A stretch of DNA of 64,000 nucleotides from Geopsychrobacter electrodiphilus DSM 16401 (GTDB taxonomy: Bacteria; Desulfobacterota; Desulfuromonadia; Desulfuromonadales; Geopsychrobacteraceae). A program made the translations under genes and the position numbers. Below, piece after piece: positions 2,093-11,103 of the stretch. Every line of letters starts with the position of its first letter. The stretch's first letter is position 1. The DNA is taken from the NCBI RefSeq assembly GCF_000384395.1, contig NZ_ARWE01000001.1:1886894-1950893 (forward strand). The letters are read 5' to 3'. The notes below the pieces were generated by a model. That model worked only from the letters and a program-made list of their open reading frames with translations. It was not told the DNA's origin and ran no database searches.

Positions 2093-2664
2093 CTGAAGAT
2101 CCTCCTGAAGGCAGCGAGGACCAGCAGCGCCGTCATGGTCGAAATCGCCGTAGCGATCAGCACCGGAAAGACGACGGCGGCCGGATTGTGGTTGCCGTAG
2201 GTAGCGAGGATGCCGATTACCGAAAATGGGATCAGCTGGATGCTGGCGGTGTTGATGACGATGAAGGTCATCATCTCGGGGGTAATGGTCCCCTTGTCCT
2301 GATTGAGCTCATCGAGATCCTGCATCGCCTGAATCCCCAGCGGGGTGGCGGCGTTGCCGAGTCCGAACAGGTTGGCCAGAACATTCAGGGTGATGGCGGT
2401 GATCGAGGGGTGATCGTCGGGGATGTTCTTGAACAAGCGGCAGATGAGCGGTTTGAAAAGGTGCGCGATGCGGTAGATCAGGCCGGAGTCTTCGAGGATT
2501 CTGGTGATTCCCATCCAGACCGAGACGATGCCTAAGAGATAAAGCGAGACCTCCACCGCAGCTTTGGCGCCGTCGAAGATAGACGTGGTAAACGCCTCGA
2601 GATGGCCGGTGAAGATCGCAAAAACGATACTGACGCAGAGCATGATCAGCCACAGGACGTTCAT
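2089..2664 (-). CDS. spmA: Spore maturation protein A-like membrane protein
   Basis: This 191-residue Gate-domain membrane protein is the partner of SpmB. Family signatures are the N-terminal hydrophobic segment, the KAAVEVSLYLLG and WMGITRILEDSGL stretches, and NLFGLGNAATPLGIQAM with the conserved GNAATPLG core. The start overlaps the end of ldcA by four bases (ATGA) and the end overlaps spmB, giving a tightly packed ldcA-spmA-spmB operon. SpmA and SpmB probably form a hetero-oligomer in the inner membrane; in some bacteria they occur as one fused protein. No sporulation genes are visible in this window. Confidence 0.88.
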   Translation of the reverse strand: MNVLWLIMLCVSIVFAIFTGHLEAFTTSIFDGAKAAVEVSLYLLGIVSVWMGITRILEDSGLIYRIAHLFKPLICRLFKNIPDDHPSITAITLNVLANLFGLGNAATPLGIQAMQDLDELNQDKGTITPEMMTFIVINTASIQLIPFSVIGILATYGNHNPAAVVFPVLIATAISTMTALLVLAAFRRIFR

Positions 2665-3527
2665 TTGTCGTCCCCGGGGAACGTCATGTTTTTGATCAAA
2701 AGCTGCTTGCGCTCCGTATTCAGTTCAACCTCAGCGCCGATCGGCAGGGTGAGTTTGTCGGTGACATGGCCGATGTTGGGGCAATGCACCACCGGGAAGT
2801 CGAGCATCATTTGTGAGGCCAGAATCTCATAGACCTTTTGGCTTCTGATCCCGCGGAAATCGCCGAGAATCAGCGCTTTGATCCCTTTGAATTTCCCGGC
2901 CAGAAGCCACTGGGTCAGGTAGCGATCGACCTGGTGCAGTTTTTCATCAACATCTTCGAAAAACAGGATGGAACCTTGGGTCTCAATCTCCCAGTCGGTC
3001 TTGAGCAGGGCGGTCAGGGTGATCAGATTGCCCCCCTTGAGAATTCCTGTGGCAGAACCGGGATGGTAGACCTTGAGACGGGCCCCTTTGAGTAGATTTT
3101 TTTCCGGATAGCCTTTGACGGCGTTGGTCAGCGACTTCAGCGTGAAGGCGGTTGGCCGGTCCAGGTTGATCAACATCGGGGCATGCAGGGTCACCAGTCC
3201 GGCGCGCTCGAAGATCGGATTAAGCAGGGCGCTCAGGTCGCTGAAGCCGGCGATGATTTTGGGGTGTCTTTTGATGAGGTCGAAATCGATGAACGGCAGT
3301 GCTTTCATTGCACTGTACCCGCCGCGCAAGGCAAGGATCATATCGACACCGGGATCTGCAAAGGCAGCATGGATTTGCTCGGCCTTCTCTTGAGGGGAGG
3401 GGAGCCGCTCGGGAAATTCCGGGTTGAGGACATTTAGCCCGAGCAGGGTGAGCTGTTTGACGCCACGGGTAAAGTCGCGCTTCTTCTTGATCAGATAACT
3501 GGGTGTGACAATAAAGACGTTATTCAA
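2661..3527 (-). CDS. ldcA: LD-carboxypeptidase (peptidase family S66)
   Basis: S66 serine peptidases such as LdcA cut the L-Lys(or DAP)-D-Ala bond of tetrapeptides during peptidoglycan recycling in the cytoplasm; MccF-type relatives hydrolyse microcin conjugates. The nucleophile motif GFSD (Ser about residue 96), FFEDVDE carrying the Glu, and GHVTDKLTLPIG carrying the His complete the Ser-Glu-His triad; ALRGGYSA is also typical. I choose the TTG at 3527, because GGAG lies at a proper distance and the mature N-terminus (NNVFIVTPSY) then fits the family; the longer frame to 3593 would add an unmatched extension. First gene of ldcA-spmA-spmB and divergent from a DUF1460 amidase. Confidence 0.87.
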   Translation of the reverse strand: MNNVFIVTPSYLIKKKRDFTRGVKQLTLLGLNVLNPEFPERLPSPQEKAEQIHAAFADPGVDMILALRGGYSAMKALPFIDFDLIKRHPKIIAGFSDLSALLNPIFERAGLVTLHAPMLINLDRPTAFTLKSLTNAVKGYPEKNLLKGARLKVYHPGSATGILKGGNLITLTALLKTDWEIETQGSILFFEDVDEKLHQVDRYLTQWLLAGKFKGIKALILGDFRGIRSQKVYEILASQMMLDFPVVHCPNIGHVTDKLTLPIGAEVELNTERKQLLIKNMTFPGDDK

Positions 3528-3637
3528 TGAAAATCTCCGCGATATCGAGCATTTAATTTGCTCCAATTTAGCTGTAATTAGATCCAAATACAACCGGATT
3601 GGCGACCGATGAGGATCATCTTCTCATCGCACAACTC

Positions 3638-3685: not shown

Positions 3686-4480
3686 ATGCTTTTTAAAATA
3701 TTGATATGGATACTTTTCTTCCTTGGTCTGAACTCCGGCGTAGCGCTGGGTGCGGATCAGAATTTGATCAACCTCGGTCACTGGAGCAACCCGGACCTCG
3801 CGCAGATCATCACCACCGCAGGCCAGATTAAGGCTCCGGGCGAGCGGATAGTTGCTCTCTCCAGTCACTTCCTTGGGACACCCTATGTCGCACATACCCT
3901 GAGCGGCGACCCGCAAACGGCGGAACAGCTGGTCATCAATCTGGCCGGGTTCGACTGCTTTACATATCTCGATGTGATCGAGGCCCTGCGCCGCTCCAGC
4001 GACCTCGATAATTTTCCTGACCAGTTGAGACAGGTCCGCTATCGCGGGGGCAAGGTTGCCTATACAAACCGCAGACACTTTTTCAGCGACTGGGTTGTGG
4101 GGAGTTCTGCCCGAATACATGATGTAACCACAGCCGTCGGGCAGGGCAGAGCTCAGGTTGTCAGCAAAAAGCTCAATCGAAAAAGTGCCGGGGCCTATTG
4201 GTTGCCGGGGATCCCTGTCACGCAGCGTGACATCGCCTACATTCCCAGCGACAAAATTGATCGGGAACTGTTGTCTGCTCTGCAGTCGGGAGATTATGTC
4301 GGTATTTATACAGATAACGCCGGTCTTGACGTCAGCCATGTCGGGCTGCTGGTTAAAGACCATGATCGTTTCATACTGCGTCATGCCTCATCGCGCAACA
4401 GTCTGAGACGGGTTGTTGACGTCGATTTGCTAAAATATATACAAGGCAAGCCAGGGCTGGTGGTCTATCGTGCCAGATAG
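3686..4480 (+). CDS. DUF1460 family cell-wall amidase-like protein, exported
   Basis: DUF1460 proteins are NlpC/P60-like cysteine hydrolases related to N-acetylmuramoyl-L-alanine amidases. A signal peptide spans residues 1-22, cleaved near VALGA. Conserved blocks are FLGTPYVAHTL, LVINLAGFDCFTYLD with the probable catalytic Cys at about residue 91, and DVSHVGLL with the probable His at about 217. The length of 264 is usual for the family. No Shine-Dalgarno precedes the ATG; a TTG at 3701 giving a shorter signal peptide is possible. It is divergent from ldcA, so periplasmic and cytoplasmic peptidoglycan-peptide enzymes sit back to back. Confidence 0.82.
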   Translation: MLFKILIWILFFLGLNSGVALGADQNLINLGHWSNPDLAQIITTAGQIKAPGERIVALSSHFLGTPYVAHTLSGDPQTAEQLVINLAGFDCFTYLDVIEALRRSSDLDNFPDQLRQVRYRGGKVAYTNRRHFFSDWVVGSSARIHDVTTAVGQGRAQVVSKKLNRKSAGAYWLPGIPVTQRDIAYIPSDKIDRELLSALQSGDYVGIYTDNAGLDVSHVGLLVKDHDRFILRHASSRNSLRRVVDVDLLKYIQGKPGLVVYRAR

Positions 4481-5780: not shown

Positions 5781-6689
5781 ATGCCTATTTTACAGGTTAC
5801 CGATTTACATAAGCGTTATGGTGCGCTGAACGCGGTTGATGGCCTCTCTTTCTCCGTCGCAAAGGGGGAGTGCTTCGGTCTTCTCGGACCGAATGGGGCC
5901 GGAAAAACCACGACCATCCGCATGCTCTACGGTTATACGCCGCGCGACTCAGGTCTGCTGCGCATCTTCGGGCTGGATATCGACAGCCATCTGCGCGAGA
6001 TCAAGGCACGCCTCGGCATCTGCCCACAGGATGATTCCCTCGACCCTGATCTGAGCCTGCGTCAGAATCTGGTTGGATATGCGCGCTATTTCTCCATTTC
6101 CCGCGCCGAGGCCGTGGCGCGGGCTGATGAACTGCTGGACTTCTTCGCCCTTCAATCCCGGGCACAGGATAAGGCGCGCATCCTTTCGGGTGGCCTCAAA
6201 CGACGGCTGCTGCTGGCGCGTGCACTGGTCAATAACCCCGATCTGGTAATTCTCGATGAACCGACCACAGGCCTTGACCCGCAGAGCCGCCAATTGTTAT
6301 GGGAGAAGCTGGCCGAGTTGAAGACGCAGGGGATGAGCATCCTGTTGACCACCCACTATATGGATGAGGCGGCGCGGCTGTGCGACAGGCTGGTGATTGT
6401 CGATCAGGGCCATATTCTGGTGGATGGGAAGCCGGCGCAACTGGTGCGCGAACAGGTGGGGCATTCGGTGCTGGAGATCATCGAGCCTGACCAGGAGGTA
6501 CGCGATTTTCTGGCAGGGGAAGACTGCCGCGTCGAAGATCTTGGCAAGCGGCTACTGGTTTATCTGAGAGAGAGTGATGAGCTGTTTCTGCGTTTGACTC
6601 GCGAGGTGCGCACCGCAGGCTGCACCCTGCGCCCGGCATCGCTGGAGGACCTGTTTCTTAAGTTAACCGGCCGGGAGTTGCGCGAATGA
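5781..6689 (+). CDS. ABC-2 type exporter ATP-binding protein (NodI-like)
   Basis: This is the cytoplasmic ATPase of an ABC-2 exporter, close to the NodI type, which with NodJ exports lipo-oligosaccharides; members outside rhizobia have mostly unknown substrates. Walker A GPNGAGKT is at about 36-43, the signature LSGGLKRR at 135-142, Walker B LVILDEPTTGLDP near 155-167, and the H-loop TTHYMDEA has its His near 192. The 302-residue length is normal. The last four bases overlap the permease start (ATGA), indicating coupled translation. No biosynthetic gene beside it reveals a substrate. Confidence 0.88.
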   Translation: MPILQVTDLHKRYGALNAVDGLSFSVAKGECFGLLGPNGAGKTTTIRMLYGYTPRDSGLLRIFGLDIDSHLREIKARLGICPQDDSLDPDLSLRQNLVGYARYFSISRAEAVARADELLDFFALQSRAQDKARILSGGLKRRLLLARALVNNPDLVILDEPTTGLDPQSRQLLWEKLAELKTQGMSILLTTHYMDEAARLCDRLVIVDQGHILVDGKPAQLVREQVGHSVLEIIEPDQEVRDFLAGEDCRVEDLGKRLLVYLRESDELFLRLTREVRTAGCTLRPASLEDLFLKLTGRELRE

Positions 6690-7477
6690 GGTGGCCAAGA
6701 CCCAGCCAATTTAGCTACAGAGTACTTCATGTATGGACCCGTAACTATCAGCTCTATAGGCAGAATTGGAAAATATCTTTCATCCCTCCGTTGCTTGAAC
6801 CGCTGCTCTATATCCTGGCTTTCGGCGTGGGCCTTGCGGTGATGGTCGGTGAGTTTAAGTTTGGTGGTCGGCCGCTCAGCTATACCCAGTTTGTCGCTCC
6901 GGCGTTGATTGCGGTGGCGATCATGCAGAATGCGTTTTTCGAAACGACCTACAATTCTTTCGTCCGCATGTATTATCAGAAGACCTTTGATGCCCTGCTC
7001 GCCACCCCGCTGAATCTGGAAGAGATTATCCTGGGGGAGATGCTCTGGGCCGCCACCAAGTCACTGATCGCTACCTTACTGATGGGAGGCGTAATCTCTC
7101 TGTTCGGGCTGTTTGATTATCCAGGCGCGCTGCTGCTGTTACCGCTGGCGGTGCTGGGAGGGCTCTGCTTTGCCGCCCTGGGGATGATCTGCACCGCGCT
7201 GGTGCCAGGGATCGAGACCTTTAACCTGCCTATTTTTCTCGGAATCACGCCGATGTTTTTGTTCGGCGGGACCTTCTTCCCGCTGCAGAACCTGCCAGGC
7301 TGGGCACAGGGCGTGGCGCAATTTCTGCCGTTGACCCATCTGGTGATTCTGGTGCGATCCTGTGCACTGCAACTCTGGGATGGCGCAATGTGGTTGAGCC
7401 TGCTCTATCTGCTGCTCGCCACCCTCGTGCTGTTACCATTGGCTATTGCCCTGATGGTGCGGCGGATTGTTCATTGA
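6686..7477 (+). CDS. ABC-2 type exporter permease (NodJ-like)
   Basis: This 263-residue inner-membrane protein has six predicted membrane segments and the ABC-2 family signature region around GGTFFPLQNLPGW near residues 193-205. The N-terminal YRVLHVWTRNYQLYRQNWK stretch and SFIPPLLEPLLYILAFG match NodJ-type permeases. It starts inside the stop region of the ATPase gene, so the two make one transporter. The substrate cannot be read from sequence; the family includes polysaccharide, lipid and drug exporters. The next gene on the same strand, 164 bases on, encodes an acetyltransferase/kinase hybrid. Confidence 0.87.
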   Translation: MRWPRPSQFSYRVLHVWTRNYQLYRQNWKISFIPPLLEPLLYILAFGVGLAVMVGEFKFGGRPLSYTQFVAPALIAVAIMQNAFFETTYNSFVRMYYQKTFDALLATPLNLEEIILGEMLWAATKSLIATLLMGGVISLFGLFDYPGALLLLPLAVLGGLCFAALGMICTALVPGIETFNLPIFLGITPMFLFGGTFFPLQNLPGWAQGVAQFLPLTHLVILVRSCALQLWDGAMWLSLLYLLLATLVLLPLAIALMVRRIVH

Positions 7478-7641
7478 GACGAGGAGGCTGTCGGACTATC
7501 CATGAGCTGGCTGCAAATCCAACAGTTATGCCCGACTGACCGGGGTTTTTGATTGACAGTCTGTTGGCGGTTCCCATTACAATAATGCCCGGATGGGAAC
7601 TCATGATAATCCTCTTCATAAAGATAAGGGCGAGAGGCGCT

Positions 7642-9615
7642 ATGGAATGGAAGCCGAGTCAATTTCCGTACATAACCAACCTGACGCCTGAGTACGAAAA
7701 AGCGGTTCGGCAATCCCCGCTGCTTAACATCGATTCTCTCCTTATCCCTTCTCCCTATATCCGCGACAACAGCATCGACATCGATTACGAACACAGCTTC
7801 GTATGGGACGAAAAGGGTGAACTGCTCGGTTATCTGCTGGTCTATGCGACGCCCGACCGTAAAAATTTTCATATTTACAAGCTGGTGACCAATCCCTTCG
7901 GCCGGGGGAAGGGGATCGGCTCGGCCTTCCTGAACTATCTTGTTCACCAGGTGGATTCTGATTCACATATCTATCTTTATGTCTGGGACAAGCTCTTAAG
8001 CTCCATCGATTTTTTCCAGACCCGGGGCTTCAGCATCACCGAGCAGGTTGTCTACCGCAAGATGAAGTTCCACCTGATGTCGGTCACGGCTGCAACGCTC
8101 AGGCAAAAAGTGGCTTCAACCAAACGCCCGGACGTGTCGGTGGTCGAAGAGCTGAGCAAGGTGCGGCACGACGTCAAAAAATCGTTGAAGGTCCTCTTCG
8201 ACATGACCGCTATGCTGTCGGTTGATAACTTCAACAAGGTTGCCGAGGATATTAACCGCGAAACCACCGCGATGCTCAACACCCTGAATATGTATGAAGA
8301 CAATATCCATCAGTCACATAAAGTCTCGCTTAAAGATCTGATCACCGAACGCGTTATCCCTTTTATCGAAGCAGTGAACCCTTCATGTGTGGTGAAGCTG
8401 GTTCTGGGGGCGAAGATTGATCCGGTCAATGGCAGCTACGTCAGCACCAGCAGAGCCCTGATCAATGTTGTTTCCAACGCGCTGGATGCCATCAAGTCGG
8501 CCGGGCGCCCCGGCCTGATCGAATTCTCACTGGGCCAGCAGGGAGACAGCGTGACTCTGGCCATAACCGATAATGGCATCGGCATCGCCGAAGACAGCCT
8601 GAAAAAGGGGGCGGACCAGTTGCCGCTTTTTGTCGGCAAGTCCACTAAGGGGACACAACCCGGTAAAGGGGTCGGGACTCAGCAGACCTATGCGACCTTT
8701 GGTGCCGATCATATCGAGGTGACCAGCAAGCTTGGGGAATTTACCAGGTGGACCATCAGGCTGAAGCGCAGCACGACCAAAGATACGGAGTTGCTGGCCG
8801 AGCTGAGTACCCGTTATGTCAGGTTGATCAAAACAACACAGAAAACCAGAATCACCAAAGAGACCAGTCGAAACGATATGACCATCTTCATCTGGCAGCT
8901 CAGGCAGATGGAGCTGTTCAGCTATGACCTGATCTATCATTTCAGCCGCTACAACAATATCCGCGATATCTTCCAGAGTTTACTGCTCTATCGCTTCGGC
9001 GGTAAATCTTTCGATTTTCTGAAGGAAGAGCTGGGCAAGTGCCGCATCGACAACAGCGAGATCAGATCCTGGCTGCTGGGGATCAGCAGGCGCCTCAACA
9101 AGTACGATACCTGCATCATGAAGAACGTCCCGTTCCAGGAATACAAGGACGTCCTTTTTCAGAGTTATGGCCAGGCCACAGACCGCACCATGATCTTTAC
9201 CCTCGATCCCGACAGCGGTAATTTTTTCACGACAGATCGAAAGCTTGCCGAACACCTCGACTTTGTATCCTATCTGGGACGTGAAAAGGATGAGCTGTTG
9301 CGCGGGGAGCTGGTCGGAGATGTCCGGAACGTCAGCAGCCCTATTTACCTGGGAGTCTGGACAACAAAAAGCCTGGATGATCTGCAAGACAAAATGCGGT
9401 TGATTCAGCGCGGGGCGCAACAGCTGCTGCTGATGGGATTCGACAAAGAGAAACGCATCGCCTTCTATAACACCACCTACAATACCTGTGAGTGGGAGAT
9501 CGACACCCTGAAGACGGTCAGTCTCGGCGAGATGGCTACGCTGGATGCGGCGGATTTTGGTCGCTTTATCAGACCGGCAGACTCGGAGATGAGTGGTCTC
9601 ATGCCCTTTGGATAG
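7642..9615 (+). CDS. Hybrid GNAT acetyltransferase / histidine-kinase-like protein with unknown C-terminal domain
   Basis: Three parts are visible in 657 residues. Residues ~45-145 form a GNAT fold with the acetyl-CoA loop FGRGKGIGSAF at 86-96. Residues ~165-378 resemble a sensor kinase: an H-box-like VRHDVKKSLK with His at about 176, an N-box with Asn 279 (NVVSNALDAI), a G1 box DNGIGI at 310-315 and a G2 box GKGVGTQQTY at 341-350. Residues ~380-657 match nothing I know and have no membrane segment. I take the ATG at 7642, preceded by GAGAGG; the upstream TTG frame from 7549 lacks support. No response regulator lies nearby. The ATPase could serve a kinase or a GHKL-type role. Confidence 0.75.
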   Translation: MEWKPSQFPYITNLTPEYEKAVRQSPLLNIDSLLIPSPYIRDNSIDIDYEHSFVWDEKGELLGYLLVYATPDRKNFHIYKLVTNPFGRGKGIGSAFLNYLVHQVDSDSHIYLYVWDKLLSSIDFFQTRGFSITEQVVYRKMKFHLMSVTAATLRQKVASTKRPDVSVVEELSKVRHDVKKSLKVLFDMTAMLSVDNFNKVAEDINRETTAMLNTLNMYEDNIHQSHKVSLKDLITERVIPFIEAVNPSCVVKLVLGAKIDPVNGSYVSTSRALINVVSNALDAIKSAGRPGLIEFSLGQQGDSVTLAITDNGIGIAEDSLKKGADQLPLFVGKSTKGTQPGKGVGTQQTYATFGADHIEVTSKLGEFTRWTIRLKRSTTKDTELLAELSTRYVRLIKTTQKTRITKETSRNDMTIFIWQLRQMELFSYDLIYHFSRYNNIRDIFQSLLLYRFGGKSFDFLKEELGKCRIDNSEIRSWLLGISRRLNKYDTCIMKNVPFQEYKDVLFQSYGQATDRTMIFTLDPDSGNFFTTDRKLAEHLDFVSYLGREKDELLRGELVGDVRNVSSPIYLGVWTTKSLDDLQDKMRLIQRGAQQLLLMGFDKEKRIAFYNTTYNTCEWEIDTLKTVSLGEMATLDAADFGRFIRPADSEMSGLMPFG

Positions 9616-10113
9616 ACAGACTTCAGCCGGATACACGCCCTCAGGCGACAGACAGACGTAATCTCACCAACGAAGATTCGCTTGTAGATTTGCTCGACTG
9701 ATAGGCCGCGATTCCATTTAAAACGCCATCACCGAATAGTCGAATGATGTCATTTTAAAATCGCTGGCAAAATAACAAAACCTGCATACCTGAAAATGAA
9801 AGGCCCGCATTTGTCGCTGCGGGCCTTCGTTTAGTTATTCGTTATTTGCGCCCTTGTCACGGGCTTGGCCGGCGGCTTGTAACCGCAGGTGGGGTGTACG
9901 AACTGTGAGAAGAATCGGCGTCTGTTTCGATAGGCGACCTCCTTTGCTCGAGTGAAGTACATGTCAATATGTACTACGGTTTCATGATACCCCATTGGCA
10001 GAAAAAAAGCATCGGCGAGACTCAATTTTAATATTAGAAAAACACTGAACAGCGCAGGATTTGCGACTTATGCTATCTTGAAACGGTGGGATAAATCAGC
10101 AGAGGAGGAACTC
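9616..10113. other. 498-base intergenic region with a terminator and a doubtful minus-strand transcript
   Basis: It contains the hairpin at 9800-9833, a 20-base inverted repeat AGTACAT-N6-ATGTACT at 9956-9975, and a minus-strand open frame 9831-10025 that starts with TTG. Within that frame lies a perfect AAAGGAGGTC ribosome-like site with no start codon at a normal distance. No protein family is recognisable, so I do not call a gene. Confidence 0.4.
9800..9833 (+). terminator. Intrinsic terminator
   Basis: A perfect ten-base stem (AAGGCCCGCA paired with TGCGGGCCTT) with an eight-base loop, followed by a partly T-rich tail on both strands. It lies 185 bases past the acetyltransferase/kinase gene. 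Confidence 0.75.
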
Positions 10114-11103
10114 ATGGGACTTCTTATCGAAGGTCAATGGCGGGATCAATGGTACGACACGAAAAAAACCAGGGGTGAGTTCGTCCGTAAGGAGTCAAGT
10201 TTTCGAAACTGGGTAACGGTTGATGGTGCGGCCGGGCCGAGCGGGGAGGGTGGTTTTGCCGCTGCAGCCGGACGCTACCATCTCTATGTGTCTCTGGCTT
10301 GTCCCTGGGCACATCGGACTTTGATCTTTCACGTCCTCAAGGGGCTGCAGCCGTTAATCGGAGTCTCGGTGGTCGAACCCTTGATGTTGGAGTGCGGCTG
10401 GGAGTTGAGTGCCACAGCGGCGGCGACCAGTCCGACACCAAAGGTTGAGTATCTTTATCAGGTCTACCAGCAGGTCGATCCGCTCTATACCGGGCGCGTC
10501 ACTGTGCCGGTGCTGTGGGACAAAGAGCGGGAGATGATTGTCAGTAACGAGTCGAGCGAGATTATCCGCATGCTCAATACCGCCTTTAATGCTTTTACCT
10601 CAGTTGAGACCGATTATTACCCGGGAGAACTTCAGGTCGAAATCGATGACATTAATCAGCGAATTTACCAAGCGATCAACAATGGTGTTTATCGAGCCGG
10701 GTTTGCAACGAGCCAACAGGCTTACGAATCAGCCTTTGTTGAACTCTTTGCTGCTCTGGATTGGCTCGAGCTGCGCCTTGGGCGGCAGCGCTACCTGATT
10801 GGCAAGCATCTTACCGAAGCGGATTGGCGCTTGTTCACCACTTTAATTCGCTTCGATGCTGTCTATGTCGGTCACTTCAAGTGCAACCTGCGCAGAATAG
10901 AGGATTATCCTAACCTCTCCAATTATCTACGTGACCTATATCAGGTGCCCGGGGTGGCAGAGACGGTCAATTTTGAACAGATCAAGACCCACTACTATGG
11001 GAGTCACAGGATGATCAACCCCTCCGGGATTGTCCCCCTTGGGCCGCGGCTTCATTTCAGCAGAGAGCATGATCGGGGCAAGTTTGATTCCCGGGGCTCT
11101 TAA
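10114..11103 (+). CDS. yqjG: Glutathionyl-hydroquinone reductase (YqjG/ECM4 family)
   Basis: Xi-class glutathione S-transferase that reduces glutathionyl-hydroquinones using glutathione, in the cytoplasm. Residues closely follow E. coli YqjG along the whole length: RYHLYVSLACPWAHRT with catalytic Cys at position 63, GRVTVPVLWDK, IVSNESSEIIRM, NNGVYRAGFATSQ, HFKCNLRRI and INPSGI. The ATG at 10114 is preceded by AGAGGAGG, giving 329 residues, the usual size; the upstream TTG at 10078 is unnecessary. It stands alone. Its presence implies glutathione or a similar thiol is available, which is notable for an anaerobe-like genome and could reflect transfer. Confidence 0.93.
   Translation: MGLLIEGQWRDQWYDTKKTRGEFVRKESSFRNWVTVDGAAGPSGEGGFAAAAGRYHLYVSLACPWAHRTLIFHVLKGLQPLIGVSVVEPLMLECGWELSATAAATSPTPKVEYLYQVYQQVDPLYTGRVTVPVLWDKEREMIVSNESSEIIRMLNTAFNAFTSVETDYYPGELQVEIDDINQRIYQAINNGVYRAGFATSQQAYESAFVELFAALDWLELRLGRQRYLIGKHLTEADWRLFTTLIRFDAVYVGHFKCNLRRIEDYPNLSNYLRDLYQVPGVAETVNFEQIKTHYYGSHRMINPSGIVPLGPRLHFSREHDRGKFDSRGS

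Follow-up and report, generated by a model that had tools for sequence, protein, structure and literature searches.

A family of predicted soluble proteins joining a GNAT-like domain, a histidine-kinase-like core and a C-terminal domain without known relative in Desulfuromonadia

We analysed a 64,000-nucleotide stretch of the genome of Geopsychrobacter electrodiphilus DSM 16401 (contig NZ_ARWE01000001.1, positions 1,886,894 to 1,950,893; referred to as the window in the rest of the text), in which positions 7642..9615 of the plus strand form a single open frame coding for 657 amino acids plus a stop. A mechanical list of open reading frames starts this gene at an upstream TTG (position 7549); homologues align from the ATG at 7642, which was therefore preferred. 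Twenty-four homologues could be aligned over the whole length, with 53-88% identity to the window protein, thereby ruling out a chance frame; the reading frame is real, and its existence and layout are confirmed. Pfam analyses and alignments divide its product into a GNAT-like domain, DHp-like helices, a CA (ATPase) domain and an orphan C-terminal domain. The initial annotation had proposed a three-part order of GNAT, kinase-like module and new-looking C-terminal domain, an order that proved common to the homologous family. This architecture is new, being made of known parts and one domain without known relative, and searches of open papers brought up no account of a GNAT fused to a histidine kinase. 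Residue counts given below refer to 46 intact members and omit L067 (at 376 aa shorter than the required 500), L037 (which repeats the window) and the incomplete rows L051, L061, L072 and L088. Membrane-type stretches (19-residue mean hydropathy >1.6) were absent from all 46, no 19-residue segment reaching 1.6, which suggests that the protein is soluble.

Upstream of the gene, a promoter-like block (TTGACA - 19 bases - TACAAT; 7553..7583, plus strand) recurs 5′ of near relatives that have different upstream genes. By eye, TTGACA was recognised in 6 and TANAAT in 7 of 10 aligned upstream regions of near relatives; a consensus promoter scan allowing spacers of 16-18 bases returned no promoter-like site in the stretch, compared to 2.6 expected. 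The constancy of the block while upstream genes differ suggests that the gene is probably transcribed on its own. We also considered a sigma-54 promoter and rejected it, as a loose pattern gave scattered matches in only 5 of 43 upstream regions. Downstream of the gene lies a terminator-like stem-loop (9800..9827, plus strand), which is a consensus match only, of a kind found 4 times compared to 2.7 expected in shuffles.

The GNAT-like domain (residues 45-130; 7774..8031, plus strand) matched the Pfam family Acetyltransf_1 with 43.5 bits (curated cut-off 20.7), and part of it aligned to a chain of NAA50 (profile match, E = 0.0015). Its P-loop, R88-G-K-G-I-G93 (7903..7920, plus strand), corresponds to the acyl-CoA pyrophosphate motif Q/R-x-x-G-x-G/A, the GNAT consensus given in the available text of PMC4964394. 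Position 88 is Arg in 44 and Lys in 2 of the 46 members, G91 and G93 are invariant, and 22 of 100 GNAT columns do not vary. Both the Pfam match and the P-loop agree with the GNAT assignment of the initial annotation. In the full-length structure model (pLDDT 66.5) this part was poor, with block-mean pLDDT values of 33-72 over residues 41-150.

Of the 46 members, 45 have Phe and one has Tyr at residue 125, where NAA50 has the Tyr of its FYxxxGF motif; the window protein has FF for the FY of NAA50 before the xxxGF turn. According to the available text of PMC4964394, a conserved Tyr acts as general acid in 62% of characterised GNATs; many GNATs therefore lack it, and Phe125 is no proof of lost catalysis. 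Judged from the alignment, loss of the Tyr is a hint, not proof, that the GNAT domain may be non-catalytic. This bears on an alternative in which the GNAT domain would be a catalytic output acting on a protein or a small molecule, with the kinase and C-terminal module as its switch. The retained P-loop and the proportion of invariant GNAT columns are consistent with such a regulated acetyltransferase, and an unusual active site might be built from the invariant Y79, W115 and K117. However, the common general acid is replaced by Phe in nearly all members and no conserved adjoining substrate gene was seen at the examined loci, and we consider this alternative unlikely. Compared with GNAT N-acetyltransferases, among which NAA50 is the nearest profile match, the likeness lies in the Acetyltransf_1 match and the acyl-CoA P-loop, whereas the fusion to a kinase core sets the window protein apart. 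The amino-acid-regulated ACT-GNAT acetyltransferases of actinobacteria, as presented in the available text of PMC6434083 and PMC8007912, likewise fuse a GNAT to a regulatory module, but their GNAT is controlled by a domain that binds amino acids, whereas that of the window protein is joined to a kinase core.

The kinase core begins with predicted DHp-like helices (residues 167-224; 8140..8313, plus strand), placed with low confidence at about residues 167-190, with a break at 175, and at 194-224, in a region where the model has pLDDT <50 (161-225). Within it lies His176 (codon 8167..8169, plus strand), the candidate phospho-acceptor of an RHDVKK motif. The CA domain follows (residues 226-379; 8317..8778, plus strand), with a Pfam HATPase_c match at residues 271-376 (37.6 bits, cut-off 26.4). 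H176, D177, K180, N275, N279 and F330, the G1 box D310-N311-G312-x-G314 and the G2 box G341/G343/G345 were found in all 46 members, and among 51 aligned rows the His is missing only in L072, the N-terminal part of which is a different protein. The H-box-like HDVKK helix and the N, G1 and G2 ATP-binding boxes that had been read from the letters of the window protein are therefore conserved throughout the family.

Comparison of folds placed the CA part near the sensor histidine kinases ZraS (Z = 17.6, rmsd 2.7 over 145 residues) and HK853 (Foldseek E = 2.4×10−10). Chains of DivL and of pyruvate dehydrogenase kinase (PDK), which we take not to be ordinary histidine kinases, ranked close behind (Z = 15.6-16.8), so the fold alone is no proof of a histidine kinase. 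Their rank lends some weight to an alternative in which the protein would be a GHKL-type ATPase or a DivL- or PDK-like pseudokinase that leaves His176 unused and works as an ATP-driven conformational switch or through another phospho-residue. The His region points the same way when scanned alone in 19 members: none of the 19 matched a HisKA-type or histidine-kinase dimerisation model, and weak matches to unrelated families only were obtained (best E = 0.0011 and 0.0021). The same alternative could also account for the lack of a conserved partner regulator among the loci. Yet H176 and D177 are invariant, as expected of a phospho-acceptor, and the whole-kinase models of EnvZ (from residue 174, model position 239, E = 1.1×10−5) and DpiB (from residue 167, E = 9×10−4) both span His176, and we regard an ATPase or pseudokinase as quite improbable. 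The phage-protein family phrog_10912, labelled 'kinase', also covers His176 (residues 171-321, E = 9.6×10−7). When a profile alignment was made to seven kinases of the same genome, the CA domains aligned and His176 was not paired with their H-boxes. In sum of likenesses, the window protein shares with ZraS and HK853 the CA fold, the N, G1 and G2 boxes and a conserved His before the CA domain, whereas it differs from them in having no membrane-type stretch, no Pfam match to PAS or HAMP and a GNAT-like N-terminal part, in carrying a further domain at its C terminus, and in a His region that fits no DHp model when taken by itself. Histidine kinase activity is, in our judgement, probable.

The C-terminal domain gave no convincing match in any search. 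Residues 381-657 of 21 members scanned against Pfam yielded a best E of 0.073, to an unrelated family and in 5 of the 21, and the best E against solved structures was 0.94. Modelled alone with 42 aligned sequences, the domain reached a pLDDT of 88.9 and a pTM of 0.83, and consists of a bundle of six helices (helical half, residues 381-510; 8782..9171, plus strand) followed by an alpha/beta unit (residues 516-645; 9187..9576, plus strand). Foldseek searches with this model found nothing under E = 0.2 in the PDB, and nothing under E = 0.3 was found in a viral structure library. The impression that residues 380-657 form a new-looking domain is accordingly strengthened by a confident model without convincing relative in Pfam or the PDB. 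Three candidate folds were considered and not adopted. For the alpha/beta half, the Stay-Green Mg-dechelatase fold (7y5y, Z = 6.0, rmsd 4.4 over 122 residues) fell below the trust level of the tool and the ADF-H/cofilin fold gave weak rows only (Foldseek E = 0.61 for the Stay-Green/ADF-H candidate, a weak row); both show a weak structural likeness to this half and no sequence match in Pfam or among solved structures. For the helical half, the best row, a GAT domain (Z = 10.1 over 88 residues), was below the tool's trust level for helical bundles. Conservation in the 46 members amounts to 19 invariant residues in 381-510 and 28 in the 130 columns of 511-640, and the invariant charged residues R533, E537, H538, D540, R554, E556 and D560 suggest a ligand pocket or a partner surface. 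A profile of the C-terminal domain was also run against the genome sets described below (395 of the phylum, 136 and 141 of two orders, 277 of the class): the frames listed measure 658-752 aa from stop to stop, except for contig-cut pieces of 44, 73, 383 and 590 aa and a TIR-joined frame of 508 aa.

The gene is present in one copy in its own genome, where 11 further matches align only within residues 219-382 and look like ordinary kinases. Among 60 close genomes, 9 contain relatives, a count that includes the window's own genome and one fragment, and a single-sequence query, which reaches close relatives only, gave 19 loci in the species genome collection. In the window's order, 25 of 136 genomes carry the gene; in a second order of the class, inferred from named relatives to be Geobacterales, 26 of 141 do. 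For the class Desulfuromonadia the count is 51 of 277 genomes, by number the same as the two orders (136 + 141), with a few cut or broken copies included. In a sample of 395 genomes of the phylum the only two carriers were G084, which belongs to the same class, and the window's own genome, and outside the family the GNAT and DHp half was not detected at E = 1×10−6 in 297 phylum genomes beyond these two. Named relatives are mostly Desulfuromonadales and Geobacter-type bacteria; two in the tree are labelled Deltaproteobacteria only. In a quick tree (46 rows, SH-aLRT support only) the two orders did not separate, and family f4 of the window's order fell among rows of the second order; this mixing makes transfer, or an old duplication followed by loss, likely. 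One locus holds a remnant (L016, G037:C9:3021-3173) that covers residues 2-59 only, with 76% identity, in a genome that has a completeness rating of 100%.

This patchy spread raises a further alternative, in which the gene would be a single-gene conflict or defence element with domains that sense and answer infection. Besides the 51 of 277 class genomes, the gene is carried by 4 of the 9 genomes of the window's own genus, not all of which are complete; some loci adjoin a resolvase, an integrase or an AbiEii-type gene; and one locus joins the second half of the family to a ThsB-like TIR domain. At that locus (L072:820-2334, in G626), a frame of 504 aa carries the TIR domain (PADLOC PDC-S66, E = 9.4×10−52) in frame with family residues 301-654, and a search of the rest of the assembly did not reveal residues 1-300 of the family. 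The join could reflect a true fusion, breakage of the gene or a chimeric assembly; as it falls inside the CA domain, it looks like a breakage product, which speaks against defence. So do the PADLOC searches, in which the window protein had no match up to E = 0.1 and the relative L017 had three weak matches, the best of which (E = 0.0016) was to a type I specificity subunit, and the failure to find the C-terminal domain in plasmids and phages (queried with the window sequence) or in viral contigs (queried with an alignment). We therefore regard a defence element as highly unlikely.

Flanking genes vary between the 20 loci compared and are shared mainly by near relatives, such as L017 and L018. 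According to Pfam, 20 same-strand neighbours include GST, DUF1499, HEAT, resolvase, PNPOx, IMPDH, acetate-kinase-family, rubrerythrin, AbiEii, GreA and integrase proteins. In the window, an ABC pair at 5781-7477 gave good scores against NodI and NodJ models, below their cut-offs, and had been suggested as the client of the protein. A homologue of its permease (E up to 1×10−50) was found in 49 of the 136 genomes of the window's order, namely in 12 of 25 carriers of the gene and 37 of 111 non-carriers (Fisher's test, P = 0.18); in the second order the figures were 1 of 26 carriers and 10 of 115 non-carriers (P = 0.69). In G017 and G463 the permease shares a contig with the gene at a distance of about 0.6-0.7 Mb; in G454, G458, G464, G493 and G503 it is on a different contig, with no linkage visible. 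In a single distant genus (four genomes, G506-G509) it lies close, at about 0.06-2.7 kb, and the two genes are convergent rather than in tandem as in the window; the ATPase and permease of two of these loci (L111 and L112, in G507 and G509) are 57-63% identical to those of the window. The exporter is thus close to the gene in the window and in that one other genus, and as a dedicated client it was rejected as a general rule, though it may be one in these two lineages; two independent linkages are curious and do not make a rule.

Receiver-domain genes were sought as possible partners of a kinase. None of the 20 same-strand neighbours scanned with Pfam contains a receiver domain, the neighbour in L019 being outside that set. 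Within 1 kb, 9 of the 46 members have a receiver-domain gene (L019, L034, L077, L081, L082, L084, L085, L086 and L087), which is a lower bound since flanks are short in some members. In four, the gene immediately upstream, in the same orientation, encodes the receiver protein: a PAS hybrid kinase in L081 and L087, and a REC-PAS-GGDEF-EAL protein in L085 and L019. In all, the nearby receivers comprise two REC-PAS-GGDEF-EAL proteins, two PAS hybrid kinases, two stand-alone kinds (two loci each) and one REC-ANTAR protein; a single conserved partner regulator was not found. Within about 0.4 kb, 8 members have a receiver compared to about 2.5 expected (Poisson, P = 0.004), or 6 groups when counted by descent (P = 0.04); the expectation takes two neighbours per gene and a receiver share of about 2.8%, based on 109 receiver matches in the genome of the window, for which 3,900 genes were assumed. 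This excess is post hoc and was seen among several kinds of neighbour, and it points weakly towards two-component signalling. The REC-PAS-GGDEF-EAL proteins at L106:4213-6531 and L019:3275-5578, encoded next upstream of the gene on the same strand in two distant members, are 39% identical over 735 residues.

We tentatively propose, as a reading with just short of an even chance, that the protein is a soluble orphan sensor histidine kinase with a GNAT-like acyl-CoA sensor and a new C-terminal module. The GNAT-like domain would bind acetyl-CoA or another acyl-CoA, mainly for sensing; that it binds CoA is fairly likely, and we lean slightly towards a mainly sensory role. Its state would be relayed by the linker to the DHp-like helical pair, and the CA domain, as its family and fold suggest, would bind ATP and phosphorylate His176, a step to which the invariance and position of this residue point. 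The phosphoryl group would then pass to a receiver protein, usually encoded elsewhere, and the C-terminal domain may act as a second input or a docking module. Histidine kinases usually have Thr or Asn four residues after the His; the Lys found there suggests that the kinase works one way, with little activity as a phosphatase. That acetyl-CoA sensing or protein acetylation is coupled to phosphorylation, as the initial annotation put forward, stays an inference. A bolder version, which we hold to be doubtful, is an acyl-CoA-gated histidine kinase in which a GNAT turned CoA-thioester sensor would control phosphotransfer directly, with the new-fold C-terminal domain as co-sensor. Much of the energy metabolism of Desulfuromonadia runs through acetyl-CoA, so that such a kinase, if real, would report acetyl-CoA status directly. 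The protein may let some sediment bacteria tie a metabolic signal to protein phosphorylation. If the GNAT gates the kinase, the family would provide a compact soluble system for testing whether acetyl-CoA level and phosphotransfer are linked, and the C-terminal domain is well suited to a first structure determination.

Several neighbouring genes deserve mention in their own right. At one locus only, an acetate-kinase-family protein (L033:4809-5978, PF00871, 65 bits) ends 22 bases 5′ of the homologue on the same strand, which is in line with the acyl-CoA theme. A glutathione S-transferase-type protein is encoded downstream of the gene in the window (10078-11103), and another GST-type gene lies upstream of the L017 homologue. 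Further upstream in the window, genes for an AmiA-like amidase (3686-4480, PF07313) and an LD-carboxypeptidase (S66; 2661-3593) adjoin each other in opposite directions and are possibly a cell-wall recycling pair.
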